Source: Bacillota bacterium (lineage in GTDB: Bacteria > Bacillota > Sulfobacillia > Symbiobacteriales > ZC4RG38). Taken from it: a stretch of DNA of 36,177 nucleotides. A program made the translations under genes and the position numbers. The notes under the pieces are model-generated. The model worked only from the letters and a program-made list of their open reading frames with translations. It had not been told where the DNA came from and made no database searches. Of the stretch, positions 2,079 to 34,515 are shown piece by piece. How positions within the stretch are numbered: the stretch's first letter is position 1; each line of letters opens with the position of its first letter. The DNA lies in the NCBI GenBank assembly GCA_021890795.1, contig JAKKUO010000019.1, positions 1 to 36,177 of the forward strand, written 5' to 3'.

Positions 2079-2906
2079 TCAGTCCGCCGGGACACCCCCG
2101 GGGGCAAGCCCCCGACCGAGGGTGACCGCCAGGGTATCTCCCCGGAGGCCCACCCGCAGGGCCTCCAGGGCCATGGCCTCCTCCGGCGGGATGTTGCCCA
2201 GGTTGACGTTGGGGCCGAACCGGAGGATTAGCGCCTGCTGCTGCTCCTTCCGGGGCGCCTCCCAGATCACCTTCTCCACCGGGAGGCTGGCCACCAGGAT
2301 CTCCACCCACTCCTCCCGCACCTGGCCGGCAGGGCCGTAGATCCCAACCCCCCGGCCGCTCTCCCGTCCCTCAATGATGACGTACTCCGCCCCGGCCTCC
2401 AGGTCCGCCAGGGCCTGCTCCGCGAGGGCCTCCGGGCTGGGCTGGGCCGCCGGGTCCTTCTTGCCCACCTCCGCCAGCACCCGCAGCCCTAGCCCCCGGG
2501 CGGTGGCGATCAGCTCCCGGCGGCGCCGGGGCGAGAGGGGAATCGTGCCTTCGGAGACCTCCGCGGCTCCGAACCCCAGGATCCGGGCCCGTTCGAGGAA
2601 GGCCTCCGCCTGCCCCTGCACCTCTGCGGCCTCCAGCAGGGTACCGCCGGGGTACGGGCAGACCCCCGCCGCCCGGATGGCCCCGAGCTTCTCCGCCAGC
2701 CGGGCCGGCGGATGGAGCTGAGCGGTGCCAAAGCCGAACTTCCAGAAGTCGATATGTGCGCCGCTGACCGCCAAAAGGTCCTGGCAGGCCGCCGGGCCGA
2801 GCCCCTTGTCCATCACCACCGTGACCCCCACCTCCCGGGGCCGCGGGGCCCGGCCGGGGATCGGCGGGGCGAGAATGCCGGTCCACGGAGCGCCATGCGG
2901 TTCCAT
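2079..2906 (-). CDS. comA: Phosphosulfolactate synthase (ComA family)
   Basis: 275 residues. The family adds sulfite to phosphoenolpyruvate to give (2R)-phospho-3-sulfolactate. Methanogens use this for coenzyme M; Bacillus relatives (YitD) use it for the sulfolactate stored in spores. Family features include VVMDKGLG near residue 30, the [10 protein letters not shown] strand, [12 protein letters not shown], the [10 protein letters not shown] segment and the [16 protein letters not shown] loop. The ATG at 2906 is preceded by AGGGGGG at a 7-nt spacing; the 38 in-frame codons upstream look non-coding. It lies 82 bp after the beta-lactamase-like gene on the same strand and ends at a good terminator. 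Given the sporulation genes nearby, a role in spore sulfolactate is the likeliest inference. Confidence 0.88.
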
Positions 2907-2988
2907 CGTGCAACCCCCCTCGGGGGTCCAGGGTATGCGCCCCGGGTCTCTCCGGCCCCCGCCGGGCCCCCGCCGGATCTTGTCCTTC

Positions 2989-4020
2989 TCACCCTCCGGA
3001 TCCGGCTGCCGGGCCGGCAAAGGTCTGCCACGCCCCGCGGGTGATGGCCACGATGACCTTGTCGGCCTCCCCGGGCTTGCCGTCCCCGGTGTAGACCACC
3101 AGCAGGAAGGGGCGGGGCCCCAGGACGATCCCCGTATCGTGCTCGTAGCCCAGGTACGACCCGTACTTGTGCCAGACCTCCACCCCCGGGGGCACCGCGG
3201 CGGCGATCCGCCCCCGGTAGGTCGCCTTCCGCAAGGGGGCCACGAGCAACTCCGCCTCCTCGGGCGCCGTCTGTCTCAGTTTCCACAGGTAGAGCCACCA
3301 GGCCGCCGCCGCCCGAGGGGTGGCCAGGGGGCCGCGGTCAAAGCCGCCCCCGATGGACCGGGCGAACTCCCGGATCCGCCCCCATCCCAGGTGACGGCCC
3401 AGGGCGTTGACCGCGGTGTTGTTGCTCTCCCGCAGGGCCAGATCCACCAGCCGCCCCACGGGAACCGCGGTGCCCGGTGAGACGTCGGCCAGGGCGCCGA
3501 GGGGCGGCTCGAAGTCCGCCTCGGCAAGCTGCACGGGGTCGTCCCACCGGAGCCGGCCGGCCCGCGCTTCTGCCAGGGCGAAGAGGGCCACAGGAACCTT
3601 GATGGTGCTGGCCGGATGGTAGGCGTCCGTGGCCCGGTACTCCCACCGGTCACCGGTCTCCAGGTCCACCGCCACCACGCTCAGCCGGCCGGAAAAGCCG
3701 CTCCGGGCCCGGGCTACCGCCTCCGCCAGGGGCCGCCAGCGGGGCGCCGCCGGCAGCGTCCCGGGCGGCGCCGGAGGCCGCTCTGCCGCCGGCGGGGACC
3801 CTTCCCCGCTCCCGCCGGCCGTCCCGCCTCCGGCCTCCGGCGCCGGTTCCGCCTCGGCAGAAGGCTCCGGGGCCCCCTGCGGCCCGGGCGCTTCGGCCCC
3901 GCCGGTCTCCGGTGGCGGCGGCACCTCGGCCGGGCCGGGGGACCACGGGGCCTGGCATCCGACCACCGCCACCACCAGCCAGGGCACGATCGCGGTCAGC
4001 CGACGGATCCTCTGCGGCAT
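2989..4020 (-). CDS. Lipoprotein class A beta-lactamase-like serine hydrolase
   Basis: 343 residues. A short signal sequence ends in a lipobox (VVAVVGC), predicting a lipid-anchored extracellular protein. A Pro/Ala/Gly-rich linker of about 70 residues follows, then a penicillin-binding serine hydrolase domain. The active-site STIK motif is at residues 138-141 (nucleophile Ser138, Lys141), an SNN triad (199-201) replaces the usual SDN, and KYG (285-287) replaces KTG. These substitutions make true beta-lactamase activity uncertain; a cell-wall-directed function is possible. The ATG at 4020 has GAGGTGA upstream. It is the first gene of a probable transcript with comA. Confidence 0.85.
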   Translation of the reverse strand: MPQRIRRLTAIVPWLVVAVVGCQAPWSPGPAEVPPPPETGGAEAPGPQGAPEPSAEAEPAPEAGGGTAGGSGEGSPPAAERPPAPPGTLPAAPRWRPLAEAVARARSGFSGRLSVVAVDLETGDRWEYRATDAYHPASTIKVPVALFALAEARAGRLRWDDPVQLAEADFEPPLGALADVSPGTAVPVGRLVDLALRESNNTAVNALGRHLGWGRIREFARSIGGGFDRGPLATPRAAAAWWLYLWKLRQTAPEEAELLVAPLRKATYRGRIAAAVPPGVEVWHKYGSYLGYEHDTGIVLGPRPFLLVVYTGDGKPGEADKVIVAITRGAWQTFAGPAAGSGG

Positions 4021-33008: not shown

Positions 33009-33341
33009 CCGGTTTGCAACCCGTTTAGAGTCTCTGGTCGACGACCGGGGGCTCCTTCTTTTCTGGCTTCTGGCCGCTCACCCCTGGGCCGTCTGCGAGA
33101 TTCCCCGCCGGCCCCGAAGGGGCACGCCCCTGAGCGGAGGAGCAATTTGGAACACGAACTCACCGGCAGCCGCCGGCTGATCCGGCGGTCGGTCAACCGA
33201 AGGGCACCGGCGGGGCCCTTAGGAACGCCCGGGGCGCGGGAGGGGTGCCTCCTCTCCGGAGGCACCCCTCCCGCGCTACGGTTCCGATAGCCGTCGACCG
33301 CGGATGCGCCGCGGCGCCCCCCTGCCGCACTGGACGGCCGG
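33009..33341. other. Convergent spacer
   Basis: This stretch separates the plus-strand 55-residue gene from the minus-strand peptide gene. Its main element is the perfect hairpin at 33234-33276. I see no coding sequence with a ribosome site. Confidence 0.5.
33234..33276. terminator. 19-bp perfect hairpin between convergent genes
   Basis: The stem pairs 33234-33252 with 33258-33276 without mismatch (5-nt loop), the longest perfect stem in the window. It lies 66 bp past the stop of the secreted-peptide gene (minus) and 226 bp past the plus-strand gene. There is no T-run on either side, so it may block read-through or protect a 3' end rather than act as a classical terminator. Confidence 0.6.
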
Positions 33342-33470
33342 CTACCGATCGTAGCCAACGGTGTGTACGGTCTCCTCGGGCCAGATGGGGCCGTTGGGGT
33401 AGGCGATCGCGGTGCCCGCCAGCAGCCCCAGGACCAGAGCTGCCAGCAGTAACGCCAGCCAGCGCCTCAC
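33342..33470 (-). CDS. Secreted mini-protein, Phr-like peptide precursor candidate
   Basis: 42 residues. The first 23 form a textbook signal peptide: MRRW, then a Leu/Ala/Val/Gly core, ending TAIA. Predicted cleavage leaves the 19-residue peptide YPNGPIWPEETVHTVGYDR. GTG at 33470 is preceded by AAAGGAGG at a spacing of eight, one of the best ribosome sites in the window. An in-frame ATG at 33512 would give a 56-residue version with 14 more residues (MKAMLIGLRKEVVR) and a weaker site. It is the next gene after the all-TPR protein gene on the same strand, the order of rap-phr cassettes. That link is inferred from architecture; no sequence match to a known pheromone is claimed. Confidence 0.65.
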   Translation of the reverse strand: MRRWLALLLAALVLGLLAGTAIAYPNGPIWPEETVHTVGYDR

Positions 33471-33639
33471 TCGGACCACCTCCTTTCGCAACCCAATCAG
33501 CATTGCCTTCATATCCCTCACCCCCCACTGTAGCGGGAGGCGTTTCCACGCACCCGACCGCCGTACACATCAGTGCCGGGCCGCCCTGTCACGAGGCGGC
33601 AGCCCTGGGCGGCCCTAAAGGCCGCCGGCGCCTTCTTGC

Positions 33640-34515
33640 TCAGCTTCTTGTTCGGTTTCGCCTTGGATGCACCAGCGAAGGTCGCAACCGCTCTCTTTCC
33701 CGGAGGGTCCGCAGCAACCGCTCATCCCCGACCGCCCGGGCAAAGCGCCGGGCGTGACGGGCGAAGAAGGCCGCCATCTCGGGCTGTCCCTGGCGGGCCG
33801 CAGTCTCGCTGACCACAAAGGCCGCCACGGCCCGGTCCCAGTCCGTCGCCCATCGATGCCCCGGCTGCAGGATCTCCTCGGCGTTCTGTAGGGCCTCGGC
33901 GTGGCGGTCAGCAAAGAGGGCAGCCAGGGCCTCCAGAGCCAGTTGATGGGTACGCTGCGCTTCGCCGACCCGGGAGACGAACTCCCCGGCCCGGCGGACA
34001 AGCTCCGCTCCCTCCTCGAGGCCTTCGCTGAGGGCCAACCAGGCCGCGTTCTGAAGGGCCATCACCGCATCCTGGGTCGAGTCCGCGTCCAGCATGACCC
34101 GGGCAGCCTGCTGATACGCCGCCAGGGCCAAGTCGACCTTGCCCTGCCTCTGGTAGACCCACCCCAGGTTGTACAGGGCCTGCCCCCGGAGGGGCGGGTC
34201 CAGCATCTCCTCGGAGAGCAGGCGGAGGAGGAACTGCTCCGCCTCAGACAGCCGCCCGCACTCCCCCAGGGCGTTCGCCAGCCAGATGGTGGCCCGGTGG
34301 ATGCGGGGGGCAGGCAGGTCTTTGGCGGACAGCAGCATGGTCAGGAGCACCACCGCCTGTTCCCAATCCCCCAGGTGGCAGGCCGCCCGACCTGCCAGCC
34401 ACAGGAGTTCCTCCCGATTCCCTGCAAAGCCATCCCGGAGCAGCCGCTGTGCCTCCCGGAGTACTGTCAGATATCGCCCGGATCTGTACGCCCTCTGTAC
34501 TGCCTCCAGGTCCAC
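33640..34515 (-). CDS. All-TPR protein, possible Rap/RRNPP-like peptide receptor
   Basis: 291 residues made of helical tetratricopeptide-like repeats from end to end. The clearest TPR is ALYNLGWVYQRQGKVDLALAAYQQAARVML near the middle; weaker ones have LAGRAACHLGDWEQAV, LANALGECGRLSEAEQFLLRLL and ALAALFADRHAEALQNAEEIL. No helix-turn-helix or signal peptide is visible, so it is cytoplasmic and would act by protein contact. Rap proteins have this all-TPR form but are usually nearer 375 residues, with an N-terminal three-helix bundle. The start is GTG at 34515, with GGGGTGAGG upstream; a TTG at 34566 is a weaker alternative. It precedes the secreted-peptide gene by 169 bp. Confidence 0.75.
   Translation of the reverse strand: MDLEAVQRAYRSGRYLTVLREAQRLLRDGFAGNREELLWLAGRAACHLGDWEQAVVLLTMLLSAKDLPAPRIHRATIWLANALGECGRLSEAEQFLLRLLSEEMLDPPLRGQALYNLGWVYQRQGKVDLALAAYQQAARVMLDADSTQDAVMALQNAAWLALSEGLEEGAELVRRAGEFVSRVGEAQRTHQLALEALAALFADRHAEALQNAEEILQPGHRWATDWDRAVAAFVVSETAARQGQPEMAAFFARHARRFARAVGDERLLRTLRERERLRPSLVHPRRNRTRS

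Follow-up and report, generated by a model that had tools for sequence, protein, structure and literature searches.

RRNPP signalling, in which a receptor built of tetratricopeptide repeats (TPRs) is paired with an exported propeptide, has mostly been described from Bacilli and Clostridia. Among the families surveyed in one study, the Rap proteins are the only RRNPPA members without a helix-turn-helix (HTH) domain (PMC9765709); the N-terminal three-helix bundle of Rap carries the catalytic Gln, and Asn225 of RapJ, which is kept in every B. subtilis Rap, holds the peptide backbone (PMC3601965). The Rap protein RappLS20 binds the Xre-type repressor Rco directly and the peptide Phr* releases Rco (PMC7430634), while a loss of the HTH has been reported for subfamily 17 of Anoxybacter fermentans (PMC12700828). 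Symbiobacterium is mentioned in the text of neither PMC9765709 nor PMC12700828, and searches of the literature on quorum sensing and pheromones in Symbiobacterium turned up no account of such systems, an automatic listing of the S. thermophilum pair in RRNPP supplementary tables being possible.

Here, we describe a gene pair resembling these systems that lies in a window of 36,177 nucleotides, the whole stretch of DNA analysed, from a GC-rich genome of the order Symbiobacteriales. An earlier note on this DNA had reported an all-TPR gene followed on the same strand by a 42-codon gene, and both open reading frames are present on the minus strand, at 33640-34515 and 33342-33470, respectively, with 169 bp between the stop codon of the first and the second. 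The first gene, starting with GTG at 34515, encodes a putative peptide receptor of 291 aa, which falls within the range of RRNPP receptors (250-500 aa with tetratricopeptide repeats). Pfam assigns TPR families only to this protein, NCBIfam gives weak generic TPR matches below the cut-off (and none for the peptide), and Foldseek against viral models finds generic TPR proteins only. The AlphaFold model, built with 24 family sequences as input, has a pLDDT of 95 and consists of 15 helices, making up seven TPRs and a cap helix; as modelled, the protein opens directly with TPR1, with no preceding domain. The absence of a DNA-binding domain proposed in the earlier note is borne out, as no HTH was found in any of 24 family receptors by Pfam or in the model of the window receptor.

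The second gene starts with GTG and encodes a predicted propeptide of 42 aa, the orthologue of which in a genus-mate (G001, the MAG ZC4RG38) is 73% identical at the protein level, the receptors of the two genomes being 89% identical. The features first attributed to this small gene are all there: a strong ribosome binding site, AAAGGAGGT (33478-33486, minus strand), recognized in the sequence, by our detector and in the orthologue comparison; a predicted Sec signal peptide, VRRWLALLLAALVLGLLAGTAIA (33402-33470, minus strand), with a positively charged start, a hydrophobic core of mean Kyte-Doolittle value 3.1 and an AIA cleavage site, identified by rules; and a predicted exported remainder of 19 aa, YPNGPIWPEETVHTVGYDR (33345-33401, minus strand), which follows from putative cleavage between AIA and Y. 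A longer version of the gene, starting at 33521 (59 aa), was ruled out by an in-frame TGA at that place in the G001 orthologue, and because this codon blocks the upstream in-frame extension in the genus-mate, the GTG start is right or nearly so. The pair carries the gene-level signature used by the program RRNPP_detector, an adjacent propeptide of 10-100 aa with a ribosome site and, by rules, a Sec-type signal; since the program takes only ATG starts by default (PMC10075063), it would miss the mini-gene in that mode. Our own detector was rule-based, combining a ribosome site, a Sec-type signal and a length of 25-80 aa, and its single match on both strands of the window was the open reading frame at 33342-33470, while Markov shuffles of the local 660 bp gave a match in only 5 of 3000 cases. 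The propeptide gene is followed on its 3' side by a perfect 19-bp hairpin (33234-33276, minus strand; -55.6 kcal/mol, z -6.1), which has no T-run, is probably a terminator and keeps its stem in G001. Neither Rfam nor tRNA scans gave a match in the window.

The two genes recur together across the order, which we sampled with eight Symbiobacteriales genomes, including the window genome (G000) and its genus-mate. A receptor profile search of these genomes gave 32 matches, most of them in open frames of 280-340 aa, and the expectation that TPR homologues in relatives should be followed by a signal-peptide gene held for about 22 of the 32, which have a Sec-type mini-ORF of 33-52 aa downstream. Near receptor stop codons (the surrounding and following 600 bp), detector matches reached a density of 1.17 per kb, compared with 0.017 per kb in the rest of these loci (19 vs 8 matches; about 68-fold, Poisson P ~2e-28); of the 8, one is the peptide gene belonging to a Symbiobacterium-type receptor that a contig end has cut off. 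The pairing of receptor and mini-ORF is not chance. Moreover, it persists in several genera and at different genomic places, beside receptors that are only 19-40% identical. Both genus genomes contain a paralogous pair (C58 in G000, C97 in G001) with a receptor about 40% identical to that of the window, G001 has a third pair (C143), and the complete genome G003, which we take to be that of Symbiobacterium thermophilum, has at least two, a receptor gene of this genome lying at ~2997849-2998718. The gene calls in these loci are heuristic and mostly unannotated, and pair counts depend on the detector rules: no mini-ORF was detected at about ten family receptors (G004:C26, G006:C136, G006:C212, two in G006:C2, both in G007:C763, G003:3165108, G000:C18 and G000:C47), some of whose peptides may have been missed by those rules (GTG start, overlap beyond 60 bp), and a mini-ORF at G003:1133244 was initially missed and later found.

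In a class-wide search of 154 genomes, the close family was confined to this order, plus one more distant match, and a single-protein scan of a collection of named genomes returned the ZC4RG38 orthologue alone. Searches with tblastn gave only generic TPR proteins in plasmids and nothing in phages, so that these collections lend no support to a phage or plasmid source for the close family. Third-position GC is lower in receptor genes than in the genes around them (median 0.73 vs 0.84, Wilcoxon P = 1.5e-4; L100 to L115, nearly all loci), which fits horizontal spread, fast turnover or evolution, or low expression. Some loci are more elaborate. At G006:C2 (L111, 3.7-7.6 kb), a tandem cluster holds three receptor genes of the family together with two precursors that resemble each other and end in CGPAYPGDAPC and CTGAAYPGDVPC, their paired cysteines suggesting a disulphide or a different type of peptide. 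A second peptide type in the genus of the window, ending in GIECT-STWRTYGSC, is encoded at G000:C10 (~2499-3575; L055, L101), where its gene overlaps the end of a TPR receptor gene of 358 aa, and at G001:C74 (L027); in the two genomes, this type is conserved as far as its C-terminal Cys.

The earlier note suggested aligning the C-terminal residues for a conserved pentapeptide-like core, and this point probably needs correcting. Between the window precursor and its G001 orthologue, PNGPIWP is unchanged and the C-terminal tail differs (TVHTVGYDR vs AVQSVGSPR); because the last residues vary between these two closest orthologues, the mature core is likely, as judged from the alignment, to be internal, with NGPIWP (33378-33395, minus strand) the probable signal. 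The motif NG[PTS]IWP is shared across genera: it is found in the window precursor and in those of G001:C187, G006:C37 and G006:C204. The G006:C204 precursor (52 aa) has two copies, NGTIWP and NGSIWPF. More broadly, WP is found in 6 of 19 mature regions, a count reached by 7 of 20000 within-peptide shuffles, although this P is a guide only, because the motif was picked after looking. Internal and duplicated pheromone cores have experimental precedent in Phr3T, a pseudo-repeat form, and Phr105 (PMC11343458). Receptor similarity also tracks peptide similarity (Mantel r 0.61, p 0.0001; r 0.25, p 0.017 when only one of each orthologous pair is kept).

The mature regions are otherwise very diverse, as they are in bacteriocins, and the mini-gene could alternatively specify a small secreted or membrane-anchored effector, either bacteriocin-like or an envelope peptide, with the TPR protein as its cytoplasmic chaperone or immunity partner. 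The gene pairing and the export signal would fit such a system as well, and paired cysteines occur in two of the peptide families (those of G006:C2 and the C10 type). However, the neighbourhoods examined, where gene calls are heuristic and mostly unannotated, show no recurrent gene for a transporter, a modifying enzyme or a membrane protein conferring immunity. Several mature regions measure only ~10 residues (e.g. EPRSGGPSSF), a hexapeptide core repeated within the precursor is a typical pheromone trait, and the sole PHROG matched by the receptor is that of Rap; we regard an effector role as unlikely.

The likeness to Rap itself lies in the TPR region, the TPR half of Rap being the best non-generic match of the receptor. 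The PHROG in question, phrog_5208, is the only one matched by three family receptors and was identified as Rap by its full-length match to RappLS20 (7e-81). Residues 1-263 of the model align on RapI 105-372 (Z 21.2, rmsd 4.0, 257 residues), but a TPR superhelix is generic, the eukaryotic protein LGN scoring as high (Z 23), and at the sequence level the link to Rap is weak. An hhalign comparison of the window receptor with RappLS20 (E 3.5e-6, prob 88) pairs Asn116 with an Asn of that protein, in the YHNLG repeat; Asn116 and Asn156 lie on inner helices of successive repeats, are each kept in 16 of 23-24 aligned members and may be equivalent to Asn225 of RapJ. These matches, Rap being the best structural and profile hit among bacterial regulators, could be taken to mean that the receptor is a divergent Rap-family phosphatase dephosphorylating Spo0F or another response regulator, as could the Spo0A gene of the window genome and the NarL-type response regulator that adjoins the pair in one relative. 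We find this improbable, as Pfam RapH_N is detected in RappLS20 (5e-13), which served as the positive control, but in 0 of 24 family receptors, and the model starts at TPR1, aligned at Rap residue 105. The receptor thus has neither of the N-terminal effector domains of RRNPP proteins (the HTH or the three-helix bundle of Rap), and with neither RapH_N nor an HTH detected, it is not classed as a Rap. The original designation as a Rap-Phr-like cassette holds for the presumed working of the pair, the peptide-signalling reading being supported by recurrence and coding constraint, and does not extend to membership of the Rap family.

The coding constraint, a further expectation of the earlier note, is clear in pooled data and indecisive for the window pair. 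Four orthologous mini-ORF pairs are, when pooled, under purifying selection (Sd/S 35/132.6 vs Nd/N 35/320.4, pN/pS 0.41, Fisher P = 9e-5); the window pair alone (synonymous 8/36.3 vs non-synonymous 12/86.7) has a pN/pS of 0.63, which is not significant in a gene too short to decide, and the three others give 9/37 vs 5/80, 6.5/33 vs 7.5/84 and 11.5/26.3 vs 10.5/69.7. A housekeeping TPR adaptor beside a non-functional or unrelated small ORF, paired by lineage inheritance of one operon, would be in keeping with the commonness of TPR proteins and with the window ratio, but is very improbable, being largely refuted by the 68-fold enrichment and also at odds with the pooled constraint and the retention of the mini-ORF beside such divergent, scattered receptors.

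We consider it probable that the pair is a member of an order-wide family of RRNPP-like peptide-signalling cassettes with output through a separate regulator. Export, processing, import, binding and target are all steps that we infer. The mini-gene precursor would be exported through Sec, after which signal peptidase and further proteases would free a short peptide with NGPIWP as its core. Re-import would be by an oligopeptide permease, and the peptide would then bind in the groove of the TPR receptor, the product of the gene immediately upstream. The output of the receptor would be the binding of a separate regulator, either an Xre-type repressor or a response regulator where these are nearby in relatives, and the peptide would change that interaction. 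A separate regulator is proposed because the receptor has no DNA-binding domain and no Rap three-helix bundle: with only the sensor domain present, it must act on another protein, and we infer that receptors across the family act on partner regulators in this way. The window genome has eight Opp-type binding-protein genes and a Spo0A gene, so that re-import and a sporulation context are possible.

Candidate partners are encoded beside some members of the family. An Xre regulator gene lies near the pair at about seven loci and is absent at many, the window locus included. At four of them (G003, G004, G007:C233 and G006:C57), the Xre-type gene (220-242 aa) is convergent to the receptor-peptide pair, and the four proteins are homologous to each other, the HTH of the G007 protein being seen only via this homology, with no match from Pfam. 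In G005, where the contig ends, the peptide gene has an Xre gene beside it, and Xre relatives are found within ~2.5 kb of two pairs in G006, those at C92 and C296. At C58 and its orthologue, an operon encoding a histidine kinase and a response regulator of the NarL type lies directly upstream of the receptor and peptide genes on the same strand; ComA, the target of RapF, belongs to this class of regulator. No regulator adjoins the window pair, which has a Memo-like gene upstream and a penicillin amidase gene downstream; in this genome, the nearest Xre relative is at C101, with no linkage to the pair on the available contig. Synteny between the window and the genus-mate (L020) ends just past the hairpin (window 33159 and below), where L020 has another gene in place of that for penicillin amidase; the spacing between the Memo-like gene and the receptor is also ~1.1 kb longer in L020.

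The family places candidate peptide-sensor pairs, several per genome, in the Symbiobacteriales, an order in which cultured members rely in part on partner bacteria, and its receptors are cut down to the sensor domain. We see about an even chance that the order harbours a large, diversifying 'bare-sensor' RRNPP-like family, with the TPR domain alone in the receptor and the output supplied by separate Xre or two-component regulators. If true, this would be split RRNPP signalling, having arisen either as another way, besides Rap, of making receptors that lack an HTH or as a relic of a stage before sensor and output were fused. The family bears on the origin of Rap proteins. It also supplies ready peptide and receptor sequences for asking whether a lone TPR sensor can act on a regulator in trans.

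Among described systems, NprR, QssR, AloR, PlcR and other HTH-TPR receptors of the RRNPP group share with the window pair a cytoplasmic TPR sensor and an adjacent predicted exported propeptide, but fuse an N-terminal HTH into the same protein, where Pfam and the model find none in the window receptor. The same architecture appeared in a phylum-wide search, in which three mini-ORF-bearing matches outside the order (L077, L081 and L089) start, as read by eye, with an Xre-type HTH. Two of these, L077 (G261:C95) and L089 (G319:C114), are long proteins of 678 and 705 aa. Each combines a putative Xre-type HTH at the N-terminus with TPRs and is followed by a signal-peptide mini-ORF ending in QWPT-G (...GDQWPTGGGSTGGSIG and ...SEEQWPTNGHSG), and the two may represent a peptide-signalling family of their own, whose receptors exceed the length usual for RRNPP. 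By description, subfamily 17 of Anoxybacter fermentans differs in its nine-TPR fold of clan B (PMC12700828). The closest likeness is to the Rap-Phr systems of Bacillus, especially RappLS20-Phr*-RcopLS20 of plasmid pLS20, which likewise have an HTH-less TPR receptor with a short Sec-type precursor directly downstream in the same orientation; the pLS20 order of rap, phr and convergent rco is mirrored by the convergent Xre genes at G003, G004, G007:C233 and G006:C57. The seven TPRs of the window receptor match the C-terminal repeats HTH3-HTH9 of Rap, but the three-helix bundle and linker (~80-95 N-terminal residues) are missing, the protein is 291 aa long vs 368 in RappLS20, with identity about the noise level, and, unlike in Rap-Phr, the peptide core is internal and Trp-Pro-rich and no regulator adjoins the pair. 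On this comparison, we file the window pair as a variant of the RRNPP kind, Rap-Phr-like in its presumed working but not a Rap.
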